Shown one piece after another: positions 11,601-52,062 of a stretch of 64,000 nt of DNA. How positions within the stretch are numbered: the first letter of the stretch is position 1; each line of letters starts with the position of its first letter. Both the position numbers and the translations under genes were made by a program. Below the pieces are notes generated by a model. That model searched no databases. It saw nothing but the letters and a program-made list of their open reading frames with translations, and had not been told where the DNA came from. The stretch covers positions 484,001 to 548,000 of the forward strand of contig CM049320.1 in the NCBI GenBank assembly GCA_026874595.1, in the 5' to 3' direction. The stretch comes from Sipunculus nudus (Eukaryota; Annelida; Sipuncula; Golfingiida; Sipunculidae).

Positions 11601-12117
11601 TCATATGGGTCAAAAGTATAAGTTGGACCGTCACAGTCATGATTAACACACAGAAAAGTTAATTCATTGTCTCTTAGAAACCTTTCAATTAGTTGTGACC
11701 TTGATGTAAAGATTCTTTGATATCTAGGACCACTAAATATAAACCAAACAAAAACAAAGGTAACGATCCCTGTCTGAAAATGGAAACACCTATCACGCGA
11801 TCATCGGATATATCTGTAATCGGAGACACCTGTAAAGAAAGCGATTTTTTCCACAATATTGCAATACCACCCTTTCCTCTCCTGTATGGATCGAGCGGAT
11901 TGAGAGATGCATCTGATACAGCATGAACAGTGTATTTGTCATGATGTAAATTTAAGAAACTAAGATTAGCTGAAAACATCCAGTGCTCGGCAATGAAACA
12001 TATATCTACACTAAATCGGTCAAGTAGGTTACATAGATACATTGAAGACCCAAAAACACCCCTGACATTGAATGACATTATTTTGAAAACAGTGTCAGTG
12101 AATGGTAAATTCTGCAT
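8674..12117 (-). pseudogene. retrotransposon ORF2: endonuclease-reverse transcriptase, inactivated
   Basis: The frame opens at 12117. Endonuclease motifs are MSFNVRG, AEHW, GKGGIAILW and DDRVIGV near the start and SDHLPV near 11500-11480. Reverse transcriptase motifs follow: KAGGYDGLTNEHI (about 10680), YRGITLLP (about 10500), FLDSSKAFDRVWH (about 10270), RQGGVLSPWLY (about 10100) and QADDIVLMS (about 9975). The C-terminal part has C-x2-C-x9-H-x4-C near 9010-8950. Breaks: a frameshift near 11715-11735 inside the endonuclease, a stop near 11246, a frameshift at a T-run near 10620, an in-frame TGA near 9925 and an in-frame TAA near 9229. The active-site box reads QADD rather than the usual Y/F-A-D-D. 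The role would have been nicking and reverse transcription of its own RNA. It is not functional as read. Confidence 0.92.
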
Positions 12118-12150
12118 AGTATTAGAGCACAGGTCCTCAGGATAAACTAA

Positions 12151-21188: not shown

Positions 21189-23549
21189 TCAGTTTGGATG
21201 CAGATCAGCCGCGTGTTTCTGCTGGTGTATCCCCATCTGGGAGGGACCAAGGACAGCTGCAGTACAGTTAGGGAATATACAATGATAGTGAGTCTGACGC
21301 TTATAATAGTGACACGTGACAACTCCACAATCAGCAGTCCCCCGGAACTTTTTGAATCCCTGAGCTGTTATTTTATCCATTTTGTTGTGCTGCCTACGAT
21401 GTGCCATGACTTTATTAGCATCTGTACAAATATAAGAACAACGTAAACAGTGGAAGTGAGTGGCTTTCTCCGCCTGCTCGCAGTCTGGATGGCCACAGTG
21501 GAGGGTTGTGCGGAACTGCTGAAAGTCATCACCAAGGATACTGTCCATTCTGTCGTGTTTCTGGCTGTGTGTCACAAAACGAAGACGATCAACAAAGCCA
21601 TATCCACAGTCAGGTCGTGTGCAATGAAAATGGGTGGAGCCACCTTTGTATGAGCAGCGTTCTATCCCACAATCCTCGTGATATGGGAATTTTTCAAATC
21701 CCTCTGGCACCACTTCTTCTTTAACAGGTCTGAACCCACTAGTACGTCTCTGTTTAGTAATAACAGCATCACTGTCAATGAAGTCATCGTGGCGTGTAGC
21801 AGTTCTCTTACGACCAGATCTGCGTGCAGCACTAGCTGAAGCTAACTGATTGTCACCTGCTAAATCAGTGTTAATCATGTGATCAGAATCATCAAGAGGA
21901 TTGGTGGAATCCAAATCATCTATTGTGTTCTGGTTGTCATGACTACTGTCCTCACCACTGCAGTCCACATCACCATTGGGGGTGATCTTAGTGCTGGCTG
22001 CCGCTGTGTCGATCAGGAGCATCGGCTCCTTAGGCAGGATGGGCCTGGTAGGTTTTACTGAAGCAAGTGTCTGTTGATGCTGATGAATCAGTGATGTAAA
22101 CATACCTGGTTTCAGGGATAATGAGGCTGAGCCAGGTACGCTGTCCTCCTCAGCATCCTCCTGTACATCCTCATCCTCCTCCACAGGTATCATCTCTGCA
22201 TCTTCATCATCACCAGCATCCTGCTGCTGGACCACGTCCTGCTGATCATCAGACTGAGACAACAGGTTATTAGGTAAGTTCGACAGCGTCCCGCTCTCCA
22301 CGTTCTGTCCTCCGTCCAGTTTCACACCATGTTTAAAAACGTGTATTTTGAGTCTTTCTGGATCTGAGAATGCTTGGCTGCAATCGAAGCAGTGATAGTG
22401 GTCCTTCTTTTTAAGCTTACAAAATGGTCGTCCACAGTTTTCATTGATGGCACAGTGCATCTTCTTAAGTAGGTCAGGCCAGCGTAGAGCCGGGATGGGG
22501 GAACCTTTGACCTGAAGGAGCGGCAGGAGACCAGACGAGATAGACACTGGTGTCCCTGGGGTACTCAAGTTATTGACAGCAGTCAGAGCAATGGGAGAGG
22601 TAATTGTGCCGGCTGAGCTGATGGTGCTCCCCAAGATCCCGACGGGGCTGGTGATGACTGAAGCTGGTGCCACCAGTGTCGGTATACCTGACCCTAACAC
22701 TGGCATCAGGATCGGAGTGTTTGATATAGGGGTAGCGATCACGCCAACAACAGGGGCACCTGCTGGGGTGCCTGTTACCGCACCCTCTACTTGGGGAATG
22801 GTGGACACTGGGAAGTAGGTGCCGCTGGACTTGATGATGTTTTTGCTGTTAGCGTCCTGTTTGGGTAACAGTATTGGCTGCTGTGGACCTACTGTAGTGA
22901 CTGTAGCAGCCTGAGCCAGTTCCTGTGCTCGTTCGAGCTCTGCCTGCTGGTGTTTTTTATCGTGTTGGTGCATGGTGCTGTACCTTACAAATGAGTAATC
23001 ACAACGAGGGCGCGTGCAGTGAAAATGACGGTTATTATGATTATTCTGACAGTGAGCTCTACGGCAACTGACGCTGCGGTCAAAAAATTCAAAATTTTCA
23101 AGGATGTTGATGAAATTATGAAAATCACGGGAGTGCAAATTGAGGACATCAGCTCTGTCTGTGGCATGGTGGCAGCGAGGTCGCACGCAATGAAAGTGAT
23201 CCTTACTGAAATATAGACACTTCATGTCTCGGCACGCCTCGCTTGGTAAGTAATGCTTAAATCCATGGTTCTGTAAAATATCTGCATCCTGTGGTGATAC
23301 CTGTCTCAGACGCTGAGCCTCAGCTAAAATCTCCTCAGTTGTCATAACAATTTTCGGGATAATCGGTATCTCATCTTTGGGGTATTTTGGTGGACGACCG
23401 CGTCGTCGTCTCATGTCAGCGAGTGGCCTTGCTATGCCTGTTCTGGGACTCCGAACAGAGTTCAAATTACGGGAAAACTCATGGATACGATGATGTTCAA
23501 GACGACTAAACACTCCATCACTGGCCCCAACCACAGTCCTACAGCCAGT
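21189..23549 (-). CDS. CASZ1: castor last exon: fingers 6 (end) to 12 and C-terminus
   Basis: Acceptor CTCTACTTTCAG before 23549; stop TGA at 21189. 786 residues, entering in phase 0. Order: end of finger 6; an AT-hook-like RRRRGRPPK at about residues 47-55; finger 7 (CRDMKC ... HFHC) and 8 (CRRAHC ... HFHC); a Thr/Ile/Pro-rich stretch; finger 9 ([16 protein letters not shown]); an acidic Asp/Glu-rich stretch; a basic SGRKR patch; then fingers 10-12 (CGIERC, CGHPDC, CGVVTC), each followed by an HFHC or HYHC block and an H-x3-H end. The last three fingers align in order with the C-terminal fingers of vertebrate CASZ1a. The gene continues upstream in exon 9. Confidence 0.97.
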   Translation of the reverse strand, partial: TGCRTVVGASDGVFSRLEHHRIHEFSRNLNSVRSPRTGIARPLADMRRRRGRPPKYPKDEIPIIPKIVMTTEEILAEAQRLRQVSPQDADILQNHGFKHYLPSEACRDMKCLYFSKDHFHCVRPRCHHATDRADVLNLHSRDFHNFINILENFEFFDRSVSCRRAHCQNNHNNRHFHCTRPRCDYSFVRYSTMHQHDKKHQQAELERAQELAQAATVTTVGPQQPILLPKQDANSKNIIKSSGTYFPVSTIPQVEGAVTGTPAGAPVVGVIATPISNTPILMPVLGSGIPTLVAPASVITSPVGILGSTISSAGTITSPIALTAVNNLSTPGTPVSISSGLLPLLQVKGSPIPALRWPDLLKKMHCAINENCGRPFCKLKKKDHYHCFDCSQAFSDPERLKIHVFKHGVKLDGGQNVESGTLSNLPNNLLSQSDDQQDVVQQQDAGDDEDAEMIPVEEDEDVQEDAEEDSVPGSASLSLKPGMFTSLIHQHQQTLASVKPTRPILPKEPMLLIDTAAASTKITPNGDVDCSGEDSSHDNQNTIDDLDSTNPLDDSDHMINTDLAGDNQLASASAARRSGRKRTATRHDDFIDSDAVITKQRRTSGFRPVKEEVVPEGFEKFPYHEDCGIERCSYKGGSTHFHCTRPDCGYGFVDRLRFVTHSQKHDRMDSILGDDFQQFRTTLHCGHPDCEQAEKATHFHCLRCSYICTDANKVMAHRRQHNKMDKITAQGFKKFRGTADCGVVTCHYYKRQTHYHCIFPNCTAAVLGPSQMGIHQQKHAADLHPN

Positions 23550-26500
23550 CTGAAAGTAGAGAATATCAAAATATTACAAATGAGCAGAGATCCACAAATA
23601 TTTTCACACTGAAACTATGTAACCTTATATCATTACCTGTCTGAGGACCAGATAAAGTTGTTGCTGCTGATTGACTGAGTTAGACAACAGGGATAAGCAT
23701 GTTAAGCAATAAAATAAGAGGTAGACAAAGTGGTAACCATGTGGCCCAGCTGGTCACAAGGTGACATCAAATATCATGTGATCTAACCTACATATCAAAA
23801 CTAGGAAAAACACCCTCTGGACTAGGTGTACAGTTCAACACCCTCTGGACTAGGTGTACAGTTCAACACCCTCTGGACTAGGTGTACAGTTCAACACCCT
23901 CTGGACTAGGCGTACAGTTCAACACCCTCTGGACTAGGCCTACAGTTCAACACCCTCTGGACTAGGCCTACAGTTCAACACCCTCTGGACTAGGTGTACA
24001 GTTCAAAACACTCTGGACTAGGTGTACAGTTCAAAACACTCTGGACTAGGTGTACAGTTCAAAACACTCTGGACTAGGTGTACAGTTCACTGTACACAAA
24101 GTAAATACTATAAAGTTGTCATGAAATTAAACTAGTCATGGCATATGTCTCTTTTTAATCATTCTATGACTTGTAAAAATACTGACCCATGGTCATGCTG
24201 CTCAGGCCACAGGAATAGCCTCAAGAACTGTCTGAATGCTGGATAACATTTTGTTCTATTGCCTACAATACTCAGATGTAACTATACTTGATGTTTTGGG
24301 CCTAGAAGTTGTGAAAATGATTTCATACTGACCTCAATTAAATTTTCATGGAATTATCAGCCTATCAGGTATCTACCTACTAATAAGTAGTATGTATTTA
24401 TGCTGAAAATAAAAATCCAAACAAGTGACTTACAGCTGACGGATCGTTTACATGAGCTGCTCACAGTTGAGTAATTAAGAAAAAGGTGCATAGCTCTGAT
24501 GGCTTCAAAAGTGTTGTCTTAACAGATGACTACGGGAGATGACTGGTTTTAGTATTGGCTTCTTCTATGTTTGATTTACTGAATGACCGAGTGTCTGACA
24601 TCAACATGTCTTTGTAAGGAAGGTGTCTGTGAGGAGAGATTCAGGATCTGACACTAGAAAGATCAGGAATGACCAAACCAAATCTAGCTCACGCCACTAT
24701 TCATCTTGTATTACACTGTACTGGGCCAGGTGACCATTTAAGCTGCTGTAAACTATTGCAATAGACCATTGGTGTCAAGCTTGGTCCAAATCTCACATTT
24801 ACACTCCAGCAGAAACTAAAATTCATGCATGTTGCAACAGTAGCAAGTTGTGCAGGACCACACTAGATCTAGAGTCGGTCGCTCAAGATCTAGCGCATGT
24901 GCTCTAGTTCTAGTTACACACAAAATTCAGAGCGCTCAAACCACAGTCTACTGCATGATAGACTCTACACCCACCTAAAACTACTAATCTAGTTAAGACC
25001 GCTCCAAACCAAAATGATATTGACTGATGACAGAGGTACTTACCCACTGACAGTGGTAGTGTATTGACTGATGACAGAGGTACTTACCTACTGACAGTGG
25101 TAGTGTATTGACTGATGACAGAGGTACTTACCCACTGACAGTGGTAGTGTATTGACTGATGACAGAGGTACTTACCCACTGACAGTGGTAGTGTATTGAC
25201 TGATGACAGAGGTACTTACCCACTGACAGTGGTAGTGTATTGACTGACGACAGAGGTACTTACCCACTGACAGTGGTAGTGTATTGACTGACGACAGAGG
25301 TACTTACCCACTGACAGTGGTAGTGTATTGACTGACGACAGAGGTACTTACCCACTGACAGTGGTAGTGTATTGACTGACGACAGAGGTACTTACCCACT
25401 GACAGTGGTAGTGTATTGACTGACGACAGAGGTACTTACCCACTGACAGTGGTAGTGTATTGACTGACGACAGAGGTACTTACCCACTGACAGTGGTAGT
25501 GTATTGACTGATGACAGAGGTACTTACCCACTGACAGTGGTAGTGTATTGACTGATGACAGAGGTACTTACCCACTGACAGTGGTAGTGTATTGACTGAT
25601 GACAGAGGTACTTACCCACTGACAGTGGTAGTGTATTGACTGATGACAGAGGTACTTACCCACTGACAGTGGTAGTGTATTGACTGATGACAGAGGTACT
25701 TACCCACTGACAGTGGTAGTGTATTGACTGATGACAGAGGTACTTACCCACTGACAGTGGTAGTGTATTGACTGATGACAGAGGTACTTACCCACTGACA
25801 GTGGTAGTGTATTGACTGATGACAGAGGTACTTACCCACTGACAGTGGTAGTGTATTGACTGATGACAGAGGTACTTACCCACTGACAGTGGTAGTGTAT
25901 TGACTGATGACAGAGGTACTTACCCACTGACAGTGGTAGTGTATTGACTGATGACAGAGGTACTTACCCACTGACAGTGGTAGTGTATTGACTGACGACA
26001 GAGGTACTTACCCACTGACAGTGGTAGTGTATTGACTGACGACAGAGGTACTTACCCACTGACAGTGGTAGTGTATTGACTGACGACAGAGGTACTTACC
26101 CACTGACAGTGGTAGTGTATTGACTGACGACAGAGGTACTTACCCACTGACAGTGGTAGTGTATTGACTGACGACAGAGGTACTTACCCACTGACAGTGG
26201 TAGTGTATTGACTGACGACAGAGGTACTTACCCACTGACAGTGGTAGTGTATTGACTGACGACAGAGGTACTTACCCACTGACAGTGGTAGTGTATTGAC
26301 TGACGACAGAGGTACTTACCCACTGACAGTGGTAGTGTATTGACTGACGACAGAGGTACTTACCCACTGACAGTGGTAGTGTATTGACTGATGACAGAGG
26401 TACTTACCCACTGACAGTGGTAGTGTATTGACTGATGACAGAGGTACTTACCCACTGACAGTGGTAGTGTATTGACTGATGACAGAGGTACTTACCCACT

Positions 26501-29500
26501 GACAGTGGTAGTGTATTGACTGATGACAGAGGTACTTACCCACTGACAGTGGTAGTGTATTGACTGATGACAGAGGTACTTACCCACTGACAGTGGTAGT
26601 GTATTGACTGATGACAGAGGTACTTACCCACTGACAGTGGTAGTGTATTGACTGATGACAGAGGTACTTACCCACTGACAGTGGTAGTGTATTGACTGAT
26701 GACAGAGGTACTTACCCACTGACAGTGGTAGTGTATTGACTGATGACAGAGGTACTTACCCACTGACAGTGGTAGTGTATTGACTGATGACAGAGGTACT
26801 TACCCACTGACAGTGGTAGTGTATTGACTGATGACAGAGGTACTTACCCACTGACAGTGGTAGTGTATTGACTGATGACAGAGGTACTTACCCACTGACA
26901 GTGGTAGTGTATTGACTGATGACAGAGGTACTTACCCACTGACAGTGGTAGTGTATTGACTGATGACAGAGGTACTTACCCACTGACAGTGGTAGTGTAT
27001 TGACTGATGACAGAGGTACTTACCCACTGACAGTGGTAGTGTATTGACTGATGACAGAGGTCCTTACCCACTGACAGTGGTAGTGTATTGACTGATGACA
27101 GAGGTCCTTACCCACTGACAGTGGTAGTGTATTGACTGATGACAGAGGTACTTACCCACTGACAGTGGTAGTGTATTGACTGATGACAGAGGTACTTACC
27201 CACTGACAGTGGTAGTGTATTGACTGATGACAGAGGTACTTACCCACTGACAGTGGTAGTGTATTGACTGATGACAGAGGTACTTACCCACTGACAGTGG
27301 TAGTGTATTGACTGATGACAGAGGTACTTACCCACTGACAGTGGTAGTGTATTGACTGATGACAGAGGTACTTACCCACTGACAGTGGTAGTGTATTGAC
27401 TGATGACAGAGGTACTTACCCACTGACAGTGGTAGTGTATTGACTGATGACAGAGGTACTTACCCACTGACAGTGGTAGTGTATTGTTCCAGACTCAGAA
27501 CAATCCGGCTCTGTGCACGTTTCATCAGCGGAGACAGTCTTGTACCAAAGAGAGGTCAGACGGTCCTGCTGCTCATGGAACCTGGTGACGAAAAAAGGTC
27601 ATATAAAACTAAAGTACTTCAAAATACACATGCAATCTGTCATGGAACCTGAAACAAATCAAATGCCAAGAAGCCTTTGTGATCAATATTGGAAGCCGTG
27701 ATATGTACCTAAATCATAATCACTTGGTATAGGGTGCTACATCAGTAAACTTTTCATGATTAAAAATGTGCTCTACACGGGACACCAGTGTTCTTTCAAC
27801 ATAAGATCACCTATGATAAATTTAATAAAACATGAATTAATGGACTATACCTACATAAAATGAATAATGCATTGACCTTATAACATTGAGTTAGCATCCT
27901 TTAACTGTCAGAGAGAACAATTACATGTGTGATCACATTATATATTAGGGCCTCTGGTTCCTCACAGCTACTCTGTTAACTCCACAACTACTCTGAGTGA
28001 AAGTCAGAGCAGACTTCTTGTTCACTAGACTGTCCTCAGCTGGCCATATTTATCCCAGTGTGAAGGAAGGGTTATTGTTTTCATTTGATTTTGTGTTTAT
28101 ATGCAAGATATATGAAGACTGGTTTCAAGGATTTCATTGAATTTTAACATAAAGGTCTATATTGTGAAAATCTCCAGGTGATTAAATGTTGGTGCAAACC
28201 CTAGTATGAGTATTGGGTTTGATAGCATATTTTTACCACTAGGGACAATTATAAAAGTTGAAATTCCTGGGCACCATCTTCATAGCAAAAGATTTGTGTC
28301 CCCACATAGCATGCTTTTATAAAGGGACCTATTGTGAAATCTGACATCTCTTAACTAAAGATAAGCCATTGACTCTTTTATCACAAGGCCTACAGGCCTA
28401 ATGCGAACCTGTGCAATGAGATTACACCAGGTATAATGCTTCAATGCTAGACCATTACTTTTCAAGAACATGTGTAACATGTATATGAACAATGCATGTA
28501 CTAAACACTTAGAACAAGAAACAATTAAACAAACATCACTGCTGAAATTCTAGCATGGGTGCACACAACACAAAAACTAGAATACAGGTAGTAAACAAGC
28601 GACTACTCAGCCAAAATCAGAGTGGGATGGGTGAAGTGAGGCATGGATTGAGTGGCAAGGGGAAACAGAGTGAGGTGTGTTGCATAATAGCCTGGATGTC
28701 TGCAGCCGAAATGTGTATGTAGGTTGCGCCACCTACCACAAAATCCAGAAAGCTGTCCAAGATGTATAAACTTGCAAAATTTTAGGCAGACAAGTCAAAC
28801 CACTACTGAGATATGAGGGATTTTAGCCTACGGCAGACAAACAGATGGACACTGTGCAAAAATGGTGGCAGGTGGCACCACCACTTTTGTGTATGATTAA
28901 GAGCTATGCGAGATCTATACACATGCAAAATTTTAGGGGGATATGTCAAACCAGTCCTGAAATATAAGCCTGAATAGAGACGATGCACAATGCACTGACA
29001 CACGATGAACGATGCAGCAACATTGCATAAGCTCACAGGTTCTCTAAAAATACGATAAGTTTTTAGATGACAAATCTTTTGCAAAACAAGGGACCCATGG
29101 GTCACGGCGCTCAGCTGATCATGTTTGGACTATAAATGTATCACCATTGTTGTACTATATTGAGTAGAAAAAGCTTATGAATATCATGGTCATGTTGGGC
29201 TTTTATAAAGGAATATAATGTAATATGTGAGTAAATGATATATGAAATAATCTGACTGATGGATTAATATGGAGTAAAATATAGTGGTCTATTTTTTATT
29301 TATTTGGGAGGGGTCGAAAAAAACAATTTATTTGAGCAAATATGAATGCAATGACAGTATACTAAGCAGTGGTATAATGATGATAAGGCTATTTGTTGAC
29401 GGATCTATAGTGTATGGAAAACTGCAAGATTTCAGTTTGACAGATACAAGGTTATGATTAACTATGCTGATGAGGGGATTTATGAATTTGTGACTGTATG

Positions 29501-30449
29501 ACATATCTTGACAAGATCGGTCTTGACAAGGTACATTATTTTGATGACCCTCAAGTATACATATTACACAATACTGACATAATTTCTGGCATGTACATAG
29601 GTACCTATGGACAAATTGTCAACAGTACTGAACCACCTAGAAGGTTAAAATATTAAAAATATGATGAAATGTAGATAAAGTTTGAGAGGAAGAGGTAATC
29701 TGGGCCATGGTTGGTTTATATGATTGAAGAAAATGTTGCAAATAATATTTGAGATCTGACCATGCCTTTCCATTGGTTACATTTTTGATAAGCTGTTGAC
29801 AGTTCAACAGTTTACACATTTGTCTGATGAGATCCAATTTATTTGGTTAACCTTTTTCATCAATTTTATGATATGTATACAGTTGCCATAACGTCCCCAC
29901 TCCACAGGTGCAATGACTTGATGGGGGGGGGGGGGGGGTGTTATGATCAGAGTTACAACACCTCTGTCTGTCTGTAGATATTTTCTTTAATTATTAAATT
30001 TTATGCTATAGCCATAGAACTACTGTTCACAGTGCCAAGGAGCAAAGCCTCAGTGGGATGAAGAAGGGGATGGTGAGAGTTACAACACCCTTGCATATAC
30101 ATACAGGATATGAAATTTAATTCAACAGAGCTTATAAAAAAAAAAAGTTTATTCATGAACATTAAATATTTAAAACAGGCAGAAAGATGGAGAAACAAAG
30201 CAAACCATTTTTTTCCCCATTCTAATGAGCCAATGAAAATTAACAATATTTGCATTTATTCCTTTTTTTCATTACATAATTTTTATCCAGGTTTACGAAT
30301 GTTACTATAAATTTACAGTATAACATATATGTGATTGTGAATATTTCAGTTGATTCACATTTCTAAATTGCATCAACATTTATAGCTAATGTATCTAGTT
30401 TATAGTACCTGTCAACAGAATGGGATGGAGGGAGGAAGGGAGGCAATAA

Positions 30450-30492
<43 letters not shown>

Positions 30493-30516
30493 AGATGGCG
30501 AGAGAAAGACAAAAAG

Positions 30517-30552
<36 letters not shown>

Positions 30553-42500: not shown

Positions 42501-45500
42501 TGAGCAAAGGTAAGCTGCCTGAAGTGGGTTACATAACACAGGTGAAGACTGTACTAGGTGGGCTTTATGTAAACAACACTTGACACTGTGTATGAAAACT
42601 CGAATAAAAGCTACTCTTATTAATCAATTCCTTTGAAATTTCAGATTTTCACTGATGAAATGATCATGTAAACATGCTGTGAAAAAAAATCAATAGTGCT
42701 TACAAAAAAAACATGCCATGGTCAAATTTGGGCAAAATTTAAGGTATTGATTTCTTATTTATGCTAATAAAAAAAATTGCAAAATTCAGATCTAATTTTG
42801 GGTATACTATTGAATCTTGGTTAAATAAAATTATATCCCTGAAAAAAGTCTCTAGCTTCAGCAATTCTCATAATAAGTGAGTAAATATATTTCCTGATTT
42901 TTTAATGTGCATAATGTTGTGGCCCATAATTTAAGAGAACTAGAATACGGGTAGTCGACAAGCGACTACGTGTATCCGCCTAAATCAGAGTGGAACGGGT
43001 GAAGTGAGGCATGGATTAAGTGGCAAGGGGAAATAGAGTGAAGTGTTGCATATGAGCATGGATGTCTGCAGCCAAATTGTGTATGAAGGTTGCCCCCCCC
43101 CTACCACAAAATCCAGAAAGCCATCCCAGTTGTATACATATGCAAAATTTAAGGCAGATAAGTCAAACCACTACATGTATATGAGTGATTTTAGCCCATG
43201 GCAGACAATCAGATGGACGCTGAGCAAAAATGGTTGCAGGTGACGGCACAAGTTTTGTGTATGATAAAGAGCTATGTGAGAACTATACACGTGCAAAACT
43301 TTGGCGCAATCGGTCAAACGGTTCCCAAGATATGAGCTTGGATGTCTGCTGCATAAACTAGAATGCAGGTGACTCCACCTGTCATAAAATCAAGAGAGCT
43401 GTCGGGGATGTATAAACCTGCAAAATTTTAGCCAGATATGTCAAACCACTGCCGAGATATGAGTGATTTTATCCTATGGCAGACAAACAGATAGGAGCTG
43501 TGCAAAAATGGCTGTAGGGGGCGCCACCAGTTTTGCGTATGTTATAAAGCTCTCCAAGGGCTACATTTGTGTAAAAAAATTTTCCTGATCGGTCAAATGG
43601 TTCCCGAGATATGAGCTTGGATGTCTGCAGCGTAAACTTGAATGTAGGTGGTGCCACCTGTCATAAAATCAGAAAAGCTATCCAGGATGTATACGCATGC
43701 CGAATTTCAGGTGAATTAGTCAAGTCACTGCAGAGATATGAGTGATTTTAACCCAAGGCAGACAAACAGATGGACACTGTGCAAACATGGTTGCAGGTGG
43801 CGCCACCATTTTTTGTGTATGTTATAAAGCTCTCCAAGGGCTACATTTGTGCAAAAAAAATTTTCCTGATCGGTCAAACGGTTCCCGAGATATGAGCTTG
43901 GATGTCTGCAGTGTAAACGTGAATGTAGGTGGCGCCACCTGTCACAAAATCAGAAAAGCTATCAGGATGTATACTCATGCCAAATTTCAGGTGAATTAGT
44001 CAAGTCACTGCAGAGATATGAGTGATTTTAACCCAAGGCAGACAAACAGATGGACACTGTGCAAACATGGTTGCAGGTGGCGCCACCATTTTTTGTGTAT
44101 GTTATAAAGCTCTCCAAGGGCTACATTTGTGCAAAAAAATTTTCCTGATCGGTCAAACGGTTCCCGAGATATGAGCTTGGATGTCTGCAGTGTAAACGTT
44201 AATGTAGGTGGCGCCACCTGTCACAAAATCAGAAAAGCTATCCAGGATGTATACGCATGCCAAATTTTAGGTGAATTAGTCAAGTCACTGCAGAGATATG
44301 AGTGATTTTAACCCAAGGCAGACAAACAGATGGACACTGTGCAAACATGGTTGCAGGTGGCGCCACCATTTTTTGTGTATGTTATAAAGCTCTCCAAGGG
44401 CTACATTTGTGCAAAAAAATTTTCCTGATCAGTCAAACGGTTCCCGAGATATGAGCTTGGATGTCTGCAGCGTAAACGTGAATGTAGGTGGCGCCACCTG
44501 TCACAAAATCAGAAAAGCTATCCAGGATGTATACGCATGCCAAATTTCAGGTGAATTAGTCAAGACACTGCAGAGATATGAGTGATTTTAACCCAAGGCA
44601 GACAAACAGATGGACACTGTGCAAACATGGTTGCAGGTGGCGCCACCATTTTTTGTGTATGTTATAAAGCTCTCCAAGGGCTACATTTGTGCAAAAAAAT
44701 TTTCCTGATCCGTCAAACGGTTCCCGAGATATGTGGGTTTATGTGTGGAAACAGACGCACAAACGGACGCAGAGCGCAGAGGAAAGGTCAGAGGTCAAAA
44801 CAAAATCGGGGCGCAGCAGTTTACATGTGACCCGAACATAATCCCGGGTTTCGTAAAATTCCGCCCAGCGGTAACGGAGGAGTTCTCCGGAAACCTACGC
44901 GGCGGCGGCGAGCAGCTGAAAACATAGTATCCGCAAAACTCTGTTTTGGCGGATACAATTACATAATACTGACAGAATTTCTTGTATGTATATAAGAAAT
45001 ATATATAGGAACACGTATATGAAATATGATCGAAAACAGATCAGTGGTTTTTATATTAGGCAGCCTTGAGTTGTAAGTGGTTTTTAAATGGAAAATTGAG
45101 GTTTTCCTTAATATCTTGAAGGAATGAAGTCCTAGTGACCCAATTTTCGGTATGGAAGGAGATTTAGGGGGCATCTAACTGTCTGCAAAATTTGGATTTA
45201 TACCTTTAACGGTTTCTAAACATGCCCTGTTAACAGATGGACAGACAGCAGGCAACACGGACGGCCCACGGACAAAGGACCATGACTAAAGCTCAGATGA
45301 TTTATAGTCAGCTGAGCTAACAAAGACTGAGACTGTTTTAACTGTATCATGAGAACTCAAAACGGGTTGTGATGAAAGTATGATAAGTAAAACCTCGCCT
45401 ATCGCCCCCTCGGTTTAGTGACCATGACCACTTTTTCGTGGTCCCAATTCCTTTTTACTCTTTACATTGAACCTTGCTTAGACTACCACCTCAAAAATGC

Positions 45501-48500
45501 CACCACTTTATTAGAGGTCCCCTTGGTGGTGTTTATTTCCAGGTTTCAGGAGAGCAAATTGGGCTACGAAAAAAATTTAAATAGAGCACTCACTGCTATT
45601 ATATCCCAATACCTATCTCTCAAAGAACATTTAATCTTTTTAAATAAACAGCATATTAGATTAGAACAATGGATCAGAACACAGCAATCATACATTTTTT
45701 TCAGTCTGACATTATTTCATCAAAACCACTGCAATTTTACATACATTACTTATCAGGCTACACTCTTTGGGAATTTCATCTTTATTAATTACTGAAGGTG
45801 AAGGTCATGTACATGACAAGATAAGAAACGAACCTGAGCCAGTGGCGCTCAAACTGGACAGCTCTTCCAAATCCACATACTCTGCATGACTGCTGGCAGA
45901 TGGCGCCACTTGCATCTGGTTTGATGAAGCCACCTTTAGTGGCAATCCAGAGGTTATTGTTATTGCAGGGTTCTGAGCAGTTTTATCTTGGCGGAACTTC
46001 CTGTATGCATTTTCAAAATCACGGCGTTCATGTTTTCGCTTGTGTGAGTAAAGCTGTCCAGTTGAGTGCAGGACATAATTACAACCTTCAACAAAGTAAC
46101 ACAATTACAAGATATAATTACAACCTATAAAAAAACAATTACAAGATATAATTACAACATACTACAAAATCACACAATTACAAGCTACAATAAGATAACA
46201 AATCTACAAGACATAAATACAACCTGAGTGGGAAAACAATTACAAAACAATTACACCCTGAAAATGTTTAATACAAGAAACACTGACAACCATCACTAGA
46301 TAACACAATTACAGGCCTAACCAGAACATCAGCAGAAGCTGACAAAAGCCCTCAGCCAAAAGATCAGTGTGTACAGGGGTTAACAGCAACAAGTATAGAA
46401 CATCTGTACTTATATAGATGTATATTTGTACATATGTCTCTGGTTCAAGATCTAAACTTGAACAAGAGATGCATGTTGTACAGTGACCATTGCAAGTCTC
46501 ATAAATGAAGTGACATACATGTAGATCAATATGATGATAAACGCTCTATAGGGGATTACCAGGAAAACAAAGATGTCCTCCAAGTAGAGGCTAAAATGTG
46601 AAATGGAGCTGCAGTTTTTGCAAAGTGAAAGAATATATTTCTTGGTGGCAGTTGTAGTATGTCTCCTGGTTCTCTACCCTATGACCTTGAAAAGTAGGTC
46701 AAGGTTACCCATTTTCAAACTTTACCAAGGTTTTTTCAGTATACATGTGTCCTGAAGAAATGAAGCACCCAAAGTTTAATTCTTTTTGAGATATCCTGCT
46801 CACAAGTCATATAAGACAAGCAAAATTTGTAAACATTAAGGCAAAAAAAAAATAAAAGGTATGGTTCTCAGGCACCGCCCTCATCAATTTTAAACCACCG
46901 CATCAAAAATTTTTATTTTGATTTTTAATTGAAACTTACCAATTTTGAGCTGCAGCCGCTCGGACATTTCTTTCAAGAAGATAAAAATCATACAATTTCC
47001 TTTGTTATATAGTGCTTTTACTTGTTTAGCAAAATAAATCTGATTTTATCATGCTTTTCCCTTATCATTTGAAATTTTTATTGAAACATACCAAAAAAAT
47101 AAAAACAAAAAACCTCCCGCCTGCATTGATTTCTGAAAAAAGTGCCTGAGAACCATGCCTTTTTTTTATTTTGGCCTAAGATATTGTAGGTGGCGCCACC
47201 AAACTGCTGTGGCAATTACAGATCACCAGGGTCAAAGAGCCCTACATATTTCATAACAATCTATTGTGTGGTTCCTGAGAAATATGCTCACAAGATTGTT
47301 TCTGTATACAGTTCTGTGACCTTGAAAAGTAGGTCAAGGTGACCCATCTTTGAACTTGACCAAGAGATTTTTTTAAGCAACTGCTATGAAGAAATGAAGC
47401 AGACATTTTTATGGTTTGCATGTAATCCTGATTATACCAAAATAGTAACTTTAGCCAGGAAGTAGTTTGTTATATGTCCACACTGCAGTTCACTTTATTA
47501 AAGCCAAAATCAGTTTATTTAACACCATGTTAGTTTGCTGTCTGCACTTTGTTTGTAATCCACTTTACTGTGCTGCAACTACACAGGAATATCCAGCAAA
47601 ATGCATGGCAGCTTCCATTGTCCTAAACTGATAACAGTTGAAAACTAGCCTCAGTGTTTGTACTTCATGAATTTCTTAATGTCACGTACCTGGCCTTATA
47701 CAGTGGATGTGGTTGGCCACCTTGGAATAACGACAATTTTTGAAGGTACAGTGTTCGTACTTCATGAATTTCTTAAAGCCGTCCCGGCCCAGGATCTCGT
47801 CTTTCTGATGATACGCTTTGTGTTTTTCTGTAAAAGTAAGAAAATCAAAGTGTCTATATGTTTATAAAGCAGTCACATACCAAGTGTCTATGTGTTTGAA
47901 AGCAGACAAATAACATTTGTCTATGTGTTTATAAAGCCAAGAAATATACAAAATGTCTATCTTAAAAGCTGTAAATATCAAGTGGCTCAGTGTTAATAAA
48001 GCAGACAAATACTAAATGGCTGTATGTTAATGAAGTAAACACAAATTGAGTGTCTATATGTTTATTATGCAGACCAATAAAACTACCAGGCAGTCAGTGA
48101 TCTGCCAAGGAAAATGTATCATTATGAGGGCTAGATTAGCATATATACACCATGATACTAGTATGAGGGACTTATAAAGGTGAATGTATCATTTACAGGT
48201 TTAAGTATTATCAACTGCAGAAATTACATATCATTACTTTGACATTCTTGGCCAAAGAATGTTGAACATATCACTCATTATGGTAATATTTTAGATTCTC
48301 TTTCACAGAGCCATTATTTACCCATGTCAGCCTTGTTCTTGAATGTGAAGCTGCATCCGTTACGACGACAGTGAAAGTGTGTTGTTCTCTGGCCATAAAA
48401 CGCACAGGCTGGTGTTCCACAATCCTCTGTAGCCCGGAACCGCTGAAAGCCTTCCTGGATGATGGCCGAGTCTTTGCGGTGGTAGTTAGCGTGCATCTGA

Positions 48501-51500
48501 ACATCTGACGTACTGATGTAGACCTTGTTACAACCGGGCTGTAAATGACAGACAAATAACATCATCAACCTCACACCTAGTGTCTTATCACAGACAAATA
48601 GCATCATGAACCTCACACCTAGTGTTTTATCACAGACAAATAACATCATCAACCTCACACCTAGTGTCTTATCACAGACAAATACATCATCAACCTAACA
48701 CCTAGTGTCTTATCACAGACGAATAGCATCATCACCACACACCTAGTGTTTTATCACAGACAAATAACATCATCAACCTCACACCTAGTGTCTTATCACA
48801 GACAAATAGCATCATTAACCTCACACCAAGTGTTTTATCAGAGACAAATAACATCATCAATCTCACACCTAGTGTCTTATCACAGACAAATAACATCATC
48901 ACCTCACACCTAGTGTCTTATCACAGACAAATAGCATCATGAACCTCACACCTAGTGTTTTATCACAGACAAATAACATCATCAACCTCACACCTAGTGT
49001 CTTATCACAGACAAATAACATCATCAACCTCACACCTAGTGTCTTATCACAGACAAATAGCATCATGAACCTCACACCTAGTGTTTTATCACAGACAAAT
49101 AACATCATCAACCTCACACCTAGTGTCTTATCACAAACAAATAGCATCATCAACCTCACACCAAGTTTTTTATCACAGACAAATAACATCATCAATCTCA
49201 CAACTAGTGTCTTATCACAGACAAATAACATCATCACCTCACACCTAGTGTCTTATCACAGACAAATAACATCATCAACCTCACACCTAGTTTCTTATCA
49301 CAGACAAAAAACATCATCAATCTCACACCTAGTGTCTATTACAGACAAATAACATCATCAACCTCACACCTAGAGTCTTATCACAGACAAAAAACATCAT
49401 CAATCTCACACCTAGTGTCTTATCACAGACAAATACATCATGAGCCTCACACCTAGTGTCTTATCGCAGACAAATAACATCATCAACCTCACACCTAGTG
49501 TTATGAGTACTTCCTGCTTTACCTGTAAGCAGTGATAATGCGTCTGCTTCCCGTTATGGGTACAAGGACCAAACTTTGGCAGACAATCGTCCATCGGGCT
49601 GTAACGCATGAAGCCGTGCTGCAGAGACTCGTCTCGCTTCTTGTGCCATTTAAAATGGCGGATCATCTCTTCTTTCTTGACAAAGATCTGTAAGCAACAA
49701 TCATTAATATTTTTATTCAACTTCACTAATACATTAAGCACCCACACTTCCTGTTAAGTTATGAGACCTTATAATACTGGTGAATTAACCTGTGATATGA
49801 CAAATGGCAAAATGTAGCTCAGTAACAATTCAAGTTATTCTCCTGTCTCTGTATATCACACACCTGATATTGTTAAGAAGGGTTTCTAAAGTCTGCAGAA
49901 GGATAAAGATGGTGTTAGGTCACTCTAGCTTAGAAAGTTTTCACCTATCAGCCCCAAAATTAAGGAGACATTTAGAAGACAGAGTTTCTGTAAAGTAGTA
50001 ATGTTCAATACAGACCCTGTAATAAGTCCACACTGTGGTAATGTCCAATACTGACTACGTAATAACAGTCTACATAGAGGTTATGTTCAATACTGACCCT
50101 GTAATTACAGTCCACATAGAGGTAATGTTCAATACTGATCCTGTAATTATAGTGATAATGGTCAATACTGACCCTGTAATTACAGACCACACAGTGGTAA
50201 TGTTAAATACTGACCCAGTAATTACAGTCCATGCAGTGGTAATGTTCAATACTGACCTTGTATTAACAGTCAACACAGTGGAAAAGTTAAATACGGACCC
50301 TGTAATTAGCCCATACAATGGTAATGTTCAATACGGATCATGTAATTCAGGTCCACACTGTAATGTTCAATAATGACCACGTAATCATAGTCCACACAGT
50401 GGTAATGTTCAATACTGACCACATAATTACAGTCCACACAGTATTTATGTTCAATACTGACCACATAATTAGTCCATGCAGTGGTAATGTTCAATACAGA
50501 CCCTGTAATTATAGTCCACACAGTGGTTATGTTCAATACTGACCCTGTAATTACAGTCCACACAGTGGTAATGTTCAATACTGACCCTGTAATTACAGTG
50601 GTAATGGTCAATACTGACCCTGTAATTACAGACCACACAGTGGTAATGTTCGATACTGACTCTGTAATTACAGTCAACACAGTAATAATGTTCAATACTG
50701 ACCACCTAATTAGTCCACACAGTGGTTATGTTCAATACTGACCACATAATTACAGTCCATACAGCGGTAATGTTCAATACTGACCACATAATTAGTCCAC
50801 ACAGTGGTAATGTTCAATACTGACCCTGTAATTACAGTCCATGCAGTGGTAATGTTAAATACTGACCCTGTAATTACAGTCCATGCAGTGGTAATGCTCC
50901 TTGTAGTTCAGGTCTTGACAGTGTTTGTTCTGGCAGGCTTCATGGGATTCAAACCTGAAATTATAATAAAATGTTTTCACAATTATAACATTACAGCATT
51001 TTAACATTATATCATTGTAACTTACAGTATTTGAACAGTATAGCATTTTAACATTATATCATTGTAACTTACAGTATTTGAACAGTATAGCATTTTAACA
51101 TAGTAGCATTCTCAGATTAATAGATTCTAGCTACAAACCTAACTGCAGGGAACAGCTCGTCACCATCAAAACAAAATCTGCTGTTCAGTTAGATCAATTG
51201 AGTGGTCAACAGTTACACTTTATGCATTAACAACTGTTAACAGTTTTGTGTTCCATCTGAATTTGTAAATATTTTAGGTGAAGTGACAAACTCAGACCTA
51301 TCCTGTTAAATACACTTAGCATACAACTCTTGCAATAACCCTTTGTCTATGGGTCTCATGTCAAAGGTCATCAATCTGGTACAGTCTGAGTTCCAATGGT
51401 TAACAGAGTTGGGTTTAAGCCAAACTCTTAACTAAAGTAAGGTTACAGCAGAGTTAAAATTCACAAGGAACAACCAGCGTAGAAAAATTTTCTGACTTTA

Positions 51501-52062
51501 AGAAGATTTTCTTTTCCACACAGGATTTAAACATTTTTTCCACTGATGTACAATGAGACCTCAAGATACTCTGCATCAGTGTGCAGGAGGATTCACATTT
51601 TATTGCCAAATAAATAAAACAATAAAGGTCTTTTCTAGATGTGCACATTTTGATTTTTATATTTTAAACATTTTACAGGACAGCAAGCCCAGAGACTTGA
51701 ACAGTTTGAAATCTCATGCTTCTGAGTTCTTCCAACTTAGCATCTCTTAGTAAATAATTTCTTTTGACTTGAAAACTAGAAACTGTCTTGTAAATAGATC
51801 ACAGAATGTGAAACTTACAGTTAAAATATTTCTGACTGTAATTTATAAACAACACTACACATACATCACAGCAAATATGTACAGCTCTCCTTCCAATGAT
51901 ATGATTAGTGTCACCTTTTGAGATATTTGGTGTAATCTGGTAGTAGAATTTTGCCTCCAGTTGTAGAGATGGTAGCTCCTTTAGGTCCACTTCCTGGACT
52001 GAAACATGCACGGATGTACTCAGAGCTGGTCGTGAACTTGTCCAGCGCTGTCTTGCTGCGAC
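21189..52062 (-). CDS. CASZ1: castor zinc-finger transcription factor (CASZ1 homologue), ten 3' exons, 5' end outside window
   Basis: Castor proteins are nuclear DNA-binding regulators of neural and mesodermal differentiation. The ten exons (51915-52062, 50867-50954, 49523-49687, 48322-48538, 47690-47827, 45834-46085, 36173-36518, 35470-35592, 27464-27581, 21189-23549) join with matching phases at every junction to give about 1317 residues ending in TGA. They carry twelve castor-type fingers of the form C-x(3-6)-C ... H-[FYI]-H-C-x(2-4)-C ... H-x(3-4)-H. Distinctive runs shared with vertebrate CASZ1 include [32 protein letters not shown] and SHKRKHERR. Fingers 1-6 are each split by an intron. 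The first exon here starts in phase 1, so more coding sequence lies upstream of 64 kb. Introns are loaded with minisatellites, several of them copies of the splice junctions. Confidence 0.95.
23807..24088. repeat. 28-bp minisatellite in intron 9
   Basis: Ten copies of CAACACCCTCTGGACTAGGT then GTACAGTT, with AAACA and GCC variants. It does not match exon sequence. Confidence 0.95.
24089..25017. other. intron 9, unique part
   Basis: Intronic. I see no exon or transposon end; a patch rich in CTAGATCT/CTAGTTCTAG lies near 24865-24910. Confidence 0.5.
25018..27486 (-). repeat. 44-bp minisatellite seeded from the exon 9 / intron 9 junction
   Basis: Minus-strand unit GTAAGTACCTCTGTCATCAG then TCAATACACTACCACTGTCAGTGG. 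The last 23 nt equal the end of exon 9 (codons for I-H-Y-H-C-Q-W) and the rest is intron with a consensus donor. About 56 copies, nearly identical; two read GTAAGG. A T/C variant (GATGAC/GACGAC) comes in contiguous blocks (about 25237-25500 and 25990-26380), which suggests block duplication inside the array. 27464-27486 is the exonic parent. Confidence 0.97.
27464..27581 (-). CDS. CASZ1: castor exon 9 of window: end of finger 5, first half of finger 6
   Basis: Acceptor TTTTTCGTCACCAG before 27581; donor GTCAGTGG/GTAAGT at 27464. 118 bp, in phase 2, out phase 0. It encodes (K)[18 protein letters not shown], then [19 protein letters not shown] and QW. Finger 6 is completed in exon 10 (TGCRTVV ... 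RLEHHRIHE). Confidence 0.93.
27582..29085. repeat. intron 8: dispersed repeats
   Basis: Intronic. 28383-28560 matches 57156-57330 (CAAGGCCTACAGGCCTAATG then CGAACCTGTGCA ...). 28575-28990 is a relative of the element at 42944-44956 (ACTAGAATAC-GGTAGT, GCGCCACCT, GGATGTCTGCAGC). The tail near 29000-29060 (GCATAAGCTCACAGGTTC) recurs near 32220 and 33145. Confidence 0.6.
29086..32147 (+). mobile_element. copy 1 of the 2.6-kb hairpin-ended repeat family
   Basis: It starts ACAAGGGACCCATGGGTCAC-GGCGCTCAGCTG and ends with the hairpin AGCTCAGATGAC-TTATA-GTCAGCTGAGCT (32119-32147). It is longer than other copies and holds low-complexity tracts: poly-G at 29924-29938, (GA)n at 30453-30587, and poly-G at 31292-31306. 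No protein is encoded. The terminal hairpin and lack of long inverted ends suggest a non-autonomous Helitron-like element, which is an inference. Confidence 0.5.
30453..30587. repeat. (GA)n microsatellite
   Basis: Three GAGAGA tracts separated by short unique pieces. The Ser-Leu and Arg-Glu open frames on either strand are simple sequence. Confidence 0.95.
32148..33540. repeat. intron 8: dispersed repeat fragments
   Basis: GGTGATGCTTGCTCCTGC and GATGCTAGCTCCTGC segments, GTAGGTGGCGCCACC at 32686 and GCATAAGCTCA/GCATGAGCTCA tails at 32223 and 33143 belong to families seen at 58850 and 63920. A TCTAGAC cluster lies at 32311-32375. Confidence 0.5.
33541..35489 (-). repeat. 28-bp minisatellite seeded from the exon 8 / intron 8 junction
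   Basis: Minus-strand unit GTAAGTCTGGTGTCAGAGAG then CACGCTAA: the last 20 nt of exon 8 plus the first 8 nt of the intron. About 69 units. Near the exon most units keep GTAAGT; in the distal half (about 33580-34640) most read GCAAGT. Subarrays with a shortened TTACTCTGACACC unit recur about 324 bp apart (33959, 34283). 35470-35489 is the exonic parent. Confidence 0.95.
35470..35592 (-). CDS. CASZ1: castor exon 8 of window: finger 5
   Basis: Acceptor TTTTTCTGACCAG before 35592; donor GCTAA/GTAAGT at 35470. 123 bp, phase 2 in and out. It encodes [20 protein letters not shown] and [20 protein letters not shown]; the last His of finger 5 (KFH) is in exon 9. The match AA+G = Lys gives HAKFH, parallel to HANFH in vertebrate CASZ1, and confirms that the first donor is the right one. 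Confidence 0.95.
35757..36179 (-). repeat. 35-bp minisatellite related to the exon 7 donor
   Basis: Minus-strand unit GACCAGGTGAAAACTAAATG then AGATATTCAGTTAAT, about 11 copies. Aligned to the exon 7 junction (GACAAG/GTAAGAACCTAATG then AGACAT), 20 of 26 bases agree. Some units keep CAG/GTGAAA; others have TAG/ATGAAA and would not work as donors. Confidence 0.75.
36173..36518 (-). CDS. CASZ1: castor exon 7 of window: disordered linker
   Basis: Acceptor TAATTTTACAG before 36518; donor TGACAAG/GTAAGA at 36173. 346 bp, in phase 1, out phase 2. It encodes a Ser/Pro-rich linker ([14 protein letters not shown] ... [13 protein letters not shown]) ending [14 protein letters not shown], which leads into the next finger in the way vertebrate CASZ1 uses WKVYLRR. 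The end of the exon and its donor resemble the unit of the next intron's minisatellite. Confidence 0.9.
36519..37710. repeat. intron 6: fragments of hairpin-family relatives
   Basis: Family-like starts occur at 36624 (ACAAGTGACCCAGGGGTCAT) and 36919 (ACAAGGGACCCATGTTTC). A (GGT)n and poly-G tract is at 36990-37055. 37280-37690 matches the core of the 2.6-kb family. Confidence 0.55.
37711..40350 (+). mobile_element. copy 2 of the 2.6-kb hairpin-ended family
   Basis: It starts ACAAGGGACCTATGGGTCAC and ends with the 12-bp-stem hairpin at 40322-40350. Its first 900 bp match 52667-53500 (GGAGACAGGGAAGAGGATTG, TTTTGACTTGGCCATA). The core carries GTGGTTTTGATATTAGGCA and GGGCCCATAACTT blocks shared with all copies. 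No open frame of note. Confidence 0.65.
40351..41240 (+). repeat. two partial hairpin-family copies
   Basis: 40351-40559 repeats the last 210 bp of the family and ends in the same hairpin (40531-40559). 40565-41240 has two related units with GATATGGGTAACAG and GACCTC, ending in a variant hairpin at 41212-41240. Confidence 0.65.
41284..45318 (+). mobile_element. copy 3 of the hairpin-ended family, with a nested element
   Basis: It starts ACAAGGGACCCATGGGTCAC and ends with the hairpin at 45290-45318. The family sequence breaks off at CCCATAATTTAAGAG (42943) and resumes with AATTACATAATACTGAC at about 44957, as in uninterrupted copies. Poly-G at 42452-42466. Confidence 0.6.
42944..44956 (+). 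mobile_element. nested element with five 280-bp units and a terminal hairpin
   Basis: It begins near AACTAGAATACGGGTAGTCG and GTATCCGCCTAAATCAGAG. Units of 280 bp (marker GATATGAGCTTGGATGTCTG at about 43330, 43608, 43889, 44168, 44448) contain the palindrome GTGGCGCCAC. The end is a hairpin, GTATCCGC-AAAAC pairing with GTTTT-GGCGGATAC (about 44927-44956). The start and end share GTATCCGCC. It is probably non-autonomous and Helitron-like; no protein is encoded. Confidence 0.6.
45391..45560 (+). repeat. possible pogo/Tigger-like transposon remnant
   Basis: AAAACCTCGCCTATCGCCCC followed by TCGGTTTAGTGACCA and repeats of GACCA/ACCTC resembles the ends of pogo-class DNA transposons. The overlapping open frame of 125 codons (45418-45795) shows no transposase motif. 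Confidence 0.3.
45834..46085 (-). CDS. CASZ1: castor exon 6 of window: end of finger 4 and linker
   Basis: Acceptor TTACTTTGTTGAAG before 46085; donor GCTCAG/GTTCGT at 45834. 252 bp, phase 1 in and out. It encodes [22 protein letters not shown], ending finger 4, then a polar linker ([12 protein letters not shown] ... [16 protein letters not shown]). The acceptor is weak in pyrimidines; a better-looking one 39 bp upstream would bring a stop codon. Confidence 0.9.
46071..46270 (-). repeat. degenerate 34-40-bp repeat spanning the exon 6 acceptor
   Basis: The exon 6 start (plus strand GACATAATTACAACC) is echoed as GATATAATTACAACC at 46111-46125, GATATAATTACAACA at 46145-46159 and ACATAAATACAACC near 46214. 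Each is joined to CAATTACAA. The copies lie in the intron upstream of the exon, so here the 3' splice site rather than the donor was duplicated. Confidence 0.8.
46640..47480. repeat. dispersed repeat with GACCTTGAAAAGTAGGTCAAGG units
   Basis: Two diverged halves (near 46680-46820 and 47310-47420) share CTTGAAAAGTAGGTCAAGGT, GACCAAG/TACCAAG and GAAGAAATGAAGCA. The MITE at 46840-47176 lies within it. Confidence 0.6.
46840..47176. mobile_element. 337-bp MITE with TAA target duplication
   Basis: The left end GGCAAAAAAAAAATAAAAGG continues TATGGTTCTCAGGCAC. The right end read in reverse, GGCCAAAATAAAAAAAAGGC, continues ATGGTTCTCAGGCAC. TAA is on both sides (46837-46839, 47177-47179). A 3-bp TWA duplication suggests a PIF/Harbinger-type non-autonomous element. 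No protein is encoded. Confidence 0.85.
47660..47776 (-). repeat. single 97-bp-offset duplication across the exon 5 donor
   Basis: GTACTTCATGAATTTCTTAA (plus strand) occurs in the exon at 47757-47776 and again in the intron at 47660-47679, next to the donor. The flanking bases (GTTTGTAC/GTTCGTAC; CACTGAGG/CACTGTAC on the minus strand) also match, so an exon-to-intron segment appears duplicated once. Confidence 0.85.
47690..47827 (-). CDS. CASZ1: castor exon 5 of window: end of finger 3, most of finger 4
   Basis: Acceptor CTTACTTTTACAG before 47827; donor GGCCAG/GTACGT at 47690. 138 bp, in phase 1, out phase 1. It encodes [20 protein letters not shown], then [20 protein letters not shown] and HCIRP. 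Finger 4 is completed by exon 6. A 20-bp run from mid-exon reappears 97 bp away in the intron just past the donor. Confidence 0.94.
48322..48538 (-). CDS. CASZ1: castor exon 4 of window: end of finger 2, most of finger 3
   Basis: Acceptor TGTCATTTACAG before 48538; donor ACATGG/GTAAAT at 48322. 217 bp, in phase 0, out phase 1. It encodes [20 protein letters not shown] (finger 2 end), then [17 protein letters not shown] and [19 protein letters not shown] of finger 3. The split codon G/AA gives Glu, restoring the expected -EKHKAYH end of the finger in exon 5. Confidence 0.95.
48539..49522 (-). repeat. intron 3: almost entirely a 42-bp minisatellite
   Basis: The 984-bp intron is about 23 units of a 42-bp repeat (plus strand ACCTCACACCTAGTGTCTTA, then TCACAGACAAATAACATCATCA), leaving about 20 nt after the donor and about 10 nt before the acceptor. 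The array runs into the polypyrimidine tract TTATTTGTCTGTCATTTACAG of the exon 4 acceptor. The minus-strand frame repeating [14 protein letters not shown] is a by-product. Confidence 0.93.
49523..49687 (-). CDS. CASZ1: castor exon 3 of window: end of finger 1, start of finger 2
   Basis: Acceptor AAGCAACAATCATTA-side reads TTGCTTACAG before 49687; donor CTTACAG/GTAAAG at 49523. 165 bp, phase 0 on both sides, 55 codons. It begins [17 protein letters not shown], completing finger 1, then [18 protein letters not shown] and the first C-C pair and HYHC of finger 2. These runs are almost the same in vertebrate CASZ1 and were the clearest identification. Confidence 0.95.
49990..50899 (-). repeat. 42-bp minisatellite seeded from the exon 2 / intron 2 junction
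   Basis: On the minus strand each unit reads GTCAGTATTGAACATTACCA then CTG(TG/CA)TGGACTGTAATTACAGG. That is the last 33 nt of exon 2 plus 9 nt of intron, donor included. About 20 units, including several with in-frame indels or substitutions. 42 is 14 codons, so readable frames repeat [14 protein letters not shown]. The first intronic unit has TAA in the normal frame, so reading through exon 2 would stop there. 50867-50899 is the exonic parent unit. Confidence 0.93.
50867..50954 (-). CDS. CASZ1: castor exon 2 of window: first half of finger 1
   Basis: Acceptor ATAATTTCAG before 50954; donor TACAGG/GTCAGT at 50867. 88 bp encode [13 protein letters not shown] ... [11 protein letters not shown]: the C-C pair and HYHC of finger 1. 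The finger is completed by exon 3 ([15 protein letters not shown]). The last 33 bases, with the donor, are repeated about 20 times in the following intron. The non-consensus donor GTCAGT was chosen because it is the only one giving phase 0, which exon 3 needs. Confidence 0.85.
50985..51110. repeat. 55-bp tandem duplication near the exon 2 acceptor
   Basis: CATTTTAACATTATATCATT with GTAACTTACAGTATTTGAAC occurs as two and a half copies, starting about 30 bp upstream of exon 2 on the minus strand. On the minus strand it reads ACTGTAAGTTAC, a donor-like string, but it does not match exon sequence. Confidence 0.8.
51111..51914. other. rest of intron 1 of the window
   Basis: Intronic, AT-rich. No repeat array or exon was recognised. 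Confidence 0.5.
51915..52062 (-). CDS. CASZ1: castor exon 1 of window
   Basis: Acceptor TTTTGTTACAG before 52062; donor CAAAAG/GTGACA at 51915. 148 bp enter in phase 1 (two bases finish a codon) and leave in phase 2, splitting an Arg codon shared with exon 2. It encodes a pre-finger segment ([16 protein letters not shown] ... DYTKYLK) that leads into finger 1. The Lys-Tyr-Leu-Lys-Arg linker before a finger matches the WKKYLTR linker at the end of exon 7. No exon could be found in the 12 kb upstream. Confidence 0.88.

Follow-up and report, generated by a model that had tools for sequence, protein, structure and literature searches.

Probable mirage-type minisatellites at exon ends of a castor-like gene and of other genes in Sipunculus nudus

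The window analysed here, a 64,000-nucleotide stretch of the sipunculan Sipunculus nudus (C15:484001-548000 of the 1.43 Gb genome), contains a zinc-finger gene on the minus strand, running from about 52062 to 21191, which we take to be castor-like, as the first-pass annotation did. Ten exons were placed from GT/AG sites and the reading frame; exon 1 is the first exon seen, and exons farther upstream are not part of the gene model. The exons, in window coordinates and with a slash at the splice junction, are as follows.

51915-52062, minus strand: exon 1, first exon seen in this model
50867-50954, minus strand: exon 2, donor AGG/GTCAGT, first intron base 50866
49523-49687, minus strand: exon 3
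48322-48538, minus strand: exon 4
47690-47827, minus strand: exon 5
45834-46085, minus strand: exon 6, acceptor AAG/GTTGTAATTATG
36173-36518, minus strand: exon 7, donor AAG/GTAAGAA, first intron base 36172
35470-35592, minus strand: exon 8, donor CTAA/GTAAGT, first intron base 35469
27464-27581, minus strand: exon 9, donor TGG/GTAAGT, first intron base 27463
21191-23549, minus strand: exon 10, terminal, with a 794-aa open frame

Zinc-finger units of exon 10 match exon 4 with E values down to 9.2e-7, and a genome search with exon 4 at E 0.001 returned only exon 4 itself and these exon 10 units, which ties the two exons together and suggests a single gene. Exon 10 gave no PDB relative at E 0.01 and no Pfam match. 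Downstream of the gene lies the largest array in the window, a 32-bp × 215 minisatellite of 6.8 kb (27-6795), and positions 8674-12150 of the minus strand hold a broken retroelement of non-LTR look, in which RVT_1 (Pfam, 1.9e-19) and Exo_endo_phos (6.1e-7) occupy separate frames and three more frames are without a match.

Tandem arrays are found in the gene at the following positions.

50982-51110, minus strand: 16/47-bp array, 28 bp upstream of the exon 2 acceptor
49994-50896, minus strand: 42-bp × 22 array, starting about 30 bp within exon 2 and spanning its donor; unit in frame
48548-49501, minus strand: 42-bp × 23 array in intron 3
47848-48079, minus strand: 34-bp × 7 degenerate array, about 20 bp upstream of the exon 5 acceptor
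46073-46255, minus strand: degenerate array spanning the exon 6 acceptor
43050-44733, minus strand: 280-bp × 6 tandem repeat in intron 6, of a dispersed family and not junction-derived
35760-36141, minus strand: 35-bp × 11 array, starting about 31 bp into intron 7, with marginal resemblance to the donor
33536-35490, minus strand: 28-bp × 71 array, starting about 21 bp within exon 8 and spanning its donor
25018-27486, minus strand: 44-bp × 56 array, starting 23 bp within exon 9 and spanning its donor
23809-24089, minus strand: 28-bp × 10 array in intron 9, away from junctions

The units of the three donor-spanning arrays join sequence from both sides of the splice site: the 44-bp unit of exon 9 is composed of about 23 exon-derived and 21 intron-derived bp, the 42-bp unit of exon 2 of about 33 and 9, and the 28-bp unit of exon 8 of about 21 and 7 by eye (27 and 1 by script). 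As had been claimed from the first reading, intron 3 (48539-49522) is nearly pure minisatellite, its array filling 954 of 984 bp (97%) and entering neither flanking exon. The units of exons 2, 8 and 9 and of intron 3, the four tested, match this window alone among all fetched sequence; since unit lengths also differ, the earlier view that the arrays are separate events is reasonable.

To assess the junctions individually, we aligned a 50-mer across each of them to 600 bp of adjoining intron and compared the score with those of 200 dinucleotide shuffles. No shuffle (0/200) reached the scores of donor 9 (48), donor 8 (44), donor 2 (40) or acceptor 6 (28), and the exon 4 acceptor matches the intron 3 array, again with 0/200. 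The exon 7 donor is marginal (2/200 shuffles reach its score), the acceptors of exon 9 (2/200) and exon 5 (14/200) are weak, and the exon 5 donor, which has no array, is not significant (13/200). A 28-bp segment of exon 5 does recur in the intron past the donor, with 27/28 identities (0/300 shuffles), but only once, and is therefore a single duplication. In the same 50-mer test, donors 1, 3, 4 and 6 and acceptors 2, 3, 7, 8 and 10 show no junction resemblance. The first-pass annotation had proposed junction-spanning duplications at donors 2, 5, 7, 8 and 9 and acceptor 6; the shuffled controls bear this out for donors 2, 8 and 9 and acceptor 6, leave donor 7 marginal, and reduce donor 5 to its single 28-bp copy. 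An origin of the three strong donor arrays (exons 2, 8 and 9) as duplications across the donor is thus supported by the sequence of their units.

We also examined where arrays fall along the gene. Four of the 11 arrays in the set (period of at least 15, about three copies or more) contain a junction, where 0.42 would be expected at random placement (P = 0.00055), and in eight an edge lies no more than 35 bp from a junction, where 0.74 would be expected (0 of 20000 placements); some exon ends in this test are 1-2 bp off those of the shuffle test. In this gene, then, junction arrays do exceed chance.

Mirage-type arrays occur at many genes of this genome. A pattern of three CAGGTAAGT motifs spaced 10-40 bp gave 303 matches, against 132 for the reversed motif; among the matches listed (100 of 303), the pattern represents 17 arrays between C1 and C7:75 Mb and its reverse four. 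As single motifs, CAGGTAAGT has 15,332 matches genome-wide and its reverse 12,946. We fetched 26 other donor-motif arrays (17 with CAGGTAAGT, three, whatever their period, taken from the list of single motifs, and six with a second donor motif, AAGGTAAGT), 25 of which had their 5' edge in reach. By eye, 17 of these 25 start within a coding exon end or directly at it (14/17 for CAGGTAAGT, 1/3 for any period and, more weakly, 2/5 for AAGGTAAGT), and in a myosin gene chosen regardless of repeats an 82-bp array, one of four arrays in 67 kb of myosin genes, spans an acceptor (L058); the pattern, first read as the property of one gene, is therefore not confined to it. Compared with the PDB, one myosin exon has as its best entries what are presumably squid and scallop myosins, but Myosin-6 follows within about one bit, so that a molluscan affinity would be no more than a guess. 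A Pfam scan of 10 of the 17 exons gave clear matches to ABC_membrane (4.5e-6) and Thioredoxin (8.2e-11), weak ones to PH (0.02) and Xan_ur_permease (0.011), one at 0.16, and none for the other five. At C1:2461600-2463100 (L061), an exon, presumably tetratricopeptide-like, is flanked 5' by a 40-bp × 27 array and 3' by a 62-bp donor-motif array.

An automatic exon rule, with its threshold set at 5% of random intronic points and detecting 27 of 35 myosin exon ends, placed 14/25 donor-motif arrays at exon ends against 9/37 single motifs (P = 0.012), a comparison that favours arrays, which offer several donor positions each where a single motif offers one. The single motifs were the first 37 unclustered among 100 listed. 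An earlier version of the rule, with wrong donor positions in several arrays, gave 4/16 arrays and 5/37 single motifs. Eye and rule disagree on five arrays, the eye adding L001, L005, L018 and L106 and dropping L102. Control arrays (21 listed, nine of TGAATGGAC and 12 of GATGACAGT; 18 fetched, with 30 of 36 edges in reach) had 4/30 edges at exon ends by the automatic rule, against the 14/25 of donor-motif arrays (P = 0.0009). Not among the controls fetched are the arrays at C1:5.58 Mb (copied at 5.60 Mb), at C2:10.25 Mb and at C1:11.28 Mb, the last being donor array L001. Two of the controls, at C3:48.59 Mb and C10:38.69 Mb, start some 10 bp beyond a clear donor. Array counts per motif were rejected as proof of donor enrichment: on C1-C3, among the matches listed, they are 12 for GATGACAGT (for which the list stops at C3:91 Mb), 10 for CAGGTAAGT and two for TGAATGGAC.

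For the acceptor motif TTTTACAGG there were 313 matches, compared with 61 for its reverse. Seven arrays with this motif were listed and six fetched, and in the five whose 3' edge was reached no obvious exon stands there; in L110 the sequence past the last motif is still repeat. The exon-end share is accordingly 17/25 for donor-motif and 0/5 for acceptor-motif arrays (P = 0.009), the acceptor motif being the less specific of the two. Roughly 1% of CAGGTAAGT donors would carry junction arrays, from about 30 such arrays genome-wide and about 2,900 real donors, both estimated.

Arrays of this anatomy have precedents, and the earlier statement that no such system was known does not hold. In the parts of the literature drawn on here, mirages are described from a few amphioxus genes and proposed as a route to intron gain: the amphioxus mirage minisatellites of Adh3, TnC and the globins BflGb6/BflGb9, whose splicing is reported to be regular and whose length unstable, and from which a model of intron gain is drawn (PMC3087553), and two exons of PGBD5 at which a second group found repeats that span splice sites (PMC3902484). 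In human IFI6 (6-16), two downstream units of a minisatellite are described as serving as donors, yielding three mRNAs (Turri 1995, as cited in PMC4526556). Here, likewise, arrays span exon-intron boundaries with units of exon plus intron sequence (donors 2, 8 and 9; acceptor 6), AG/GT splice signals recur in many units (exon 9 and exon 8 arrays), and 5' and 3' boundaries are both affected (the castor donors and exon 6 acceptor; the myosin acceptor in L058). Because the anatomy reported for amphioxus matches and IFI6 offers a precedent, the arrays, judged by their sequence, belong to the known mirage kind. They differ from the amphioxus cases in copy number (as many as 71), in the four solid junctions of a single gene, and in a recurrence across genes that was counted; transcripts and length polymorphism are among what the amphioxus report describes, whereas the present arrays come from one genome assembly alone. 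The genomes also differ in size, 1.43 Gb here against about 0.5 Gb in amphioxus.

Like IFI6, as that source presents it, the castor-like gene has minisatellite units offering donor sites beside an exon; unlike IFI6, its copies are known from sequence alone, and use of a decoy donor in exons 8 or 9 would break the frame through a shift or a stop. Decoy use in exon 2 would add 14 in-frame residues per unit. In human segmental-duplication genes, internal tandem repeats are found at exon-intron boundaries; they are said to vary between recent paralogues and to be able to create introns (PMC2812944). They appear similar in having minisatellite-length units at such boundaries, whereas the arrays here are seen in, and at the edges of, existing introns of the gene model. 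Intron gain through tandem duplication, as outlined in PMC2891723 and PMC4974935, has in common with these arrays a duplication that crosses a splice or proto-splice site, but in the present gene model the duplicates enlarge an existing intron. The portions consulted of a report on an abalone intron with a 27-bp minisatellite mention no junction (PMC6905558), and no closer case was found in those of PMC6905558, PMC12783039, PMC4039745, PMC3039753 and PMC10809524; among the matches listed in the open-licence literature there was no mollusc case of splice-junction minisatellites. A genome with mirages at many genes would allow a direct test of the intron-gain proposal and of why duplications settle on donors, and arrays of good donors beside exons can mislead gene prediction.

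Building on unit anatomy, placement and recurrence at other genes, we consider it likely that these are mirage-type minisatellites in which an exon end and its donor were duplicated, the first donor is still used, the intronic copies have expanded, and an end effect explains their pile-up in this gene. Slippage, the first step that we infer, would duplicate some 30-50 bp in tandem, with the end of the exon and its donor included. The exon 9 array (CAATA) and the exon 2 array (CATTACYACT) each have a short match between their two ends, which fits slippage between direct repeats straddling the donor. Since the duplicate would lie downstream of the original, splicing at the first donor would be unchanged, the exon-proximal donor would presumably stay functional, and the change would be tolerated. 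The intronic copies may then expand and be homogenised via slippage or unequal exchange. A duplicated acceptor would fall upstream and be met first, so that donors would be favoured, as is seen. Neutrality alone leaves the preference for junctions over intron interiors unexplained.

Such a preference would follow if 5' splice sites were mutational hotspots at which transcription or co-transcriptional splicing (R-loops, breaks or U1-bound donors) starts duplications with a downstream breakpoint just past the donor. The junction preference in castor and the arrays at donors elsewhere agree with this, as does the short intronic part of the units (17 arrays, median 13 nt, mean 15.9; P = 0.005 versus uniform breakpoints), measured on 14 of the 17 exon-end arrays and three castor arrays, with L001, L014/L018 and L106 excluded. 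This P value is fragile, however, becoming 0.008 with the exon 8 unit taken by eye and 0.022 or 0.055 if exon parts are overestimated by 1 or 2 nt; the bias towards donors, seen in that 5/5 acceptor-motif arrays reached are without an exon at their 3' edge, would also be yielded by selection alone. We regard a hotspot as unlikely, and we judge it equally improbable that duplications arise throughout introns and those at exon ends last, the selection-kept exon copy re-seeding the array by conversion. The exon-derived side is indeed the less variable in 10 of 18 arrays, with four ties (means 0.051 exon, 0.074 intron), but the difference is not significant (Wilcoxon P = 0.21), and four of the 18 go in the opposite direction, including castor exon 8 and L106, the array with most units (89).

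The high retention of GTAAGT in the exon 9 array (54 of 56 units) might suggest that the copies are functional, the extra donors binding U1 and regulating splicing or keeping long introns from being polyadenylated too early. Almost no part of that array varies, however, and the donor thus shows no special conservation, while in the exon 8 array the second base of the donor is among the two most variable columns (33 GCAAGT against 24 GTAAGT in 70 units); we therefore find a function for the copies very hard to credit. Chance in a region rich in repeats and examined post hoc is a similarly far-fetched explanation: arrays make up 30% of the gene span, and rough arithmetic (about 1% of CAGGTAAGT donors, 25,000 genes assumed) permits a couple of genes with three of nine donors hit, but junction-containing arrays number four against the 0.42 of random placement, and unit sequences match exons. 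Going beyond the tolerated donor duplications that we favour, one might tentatively, and with considerable doubt, see in 5' splice sites recurrent genome-wide birthplaces of minisatellites in this lineage, with donor-linked duplication, its downstream breakpoint just past the U1 site, supplying spare donors and exon ends for gained or moved introns.

The many junction arrays of the castor-like gene are probably owed, we infer, to its place in a minisatellite-dense region roughly 0.5 Mb from the end of a contig, and probably of a chromosome, minisatellites being about sevenfold denser there in a small sample; this would be simpler than the R-loops, transcription-linked breaks or splicing control first suggested. 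The sample consists of eight 6-kb stretches, contig starts being assumed to be chromosome ends: the four lying 0.5 Mb from the starts of four other contigs hold seven arrays, four of them in one stretch, and the four at 50 Mb, in the interiors of these contigs, hold one. This gives 2.92 arrays per 10 kb near the contig starts and 0.42 in the interiors; the corresponding density is 0.59 for the myosin genes, 3.28 for the window and 3.56 for the castor-like gene. A gene with three of nine donors hit would be rare, yet in a genome with tens of thousands of genes it would be no great surprise, the less so close to an end.

Two further observations concern the introns of this gene. The arrays before the exon 5 and exon 4 acceptors (47848-48079 and 48548-49501) have a common block (4/1000 shuffles reach the score), possibly copied between introns. 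The 280-bp repeat of intron 6 has family copies in the fetched loci L004, L060, L080 and L115, and its units contain a GGTGGCGCCACC palindrome.
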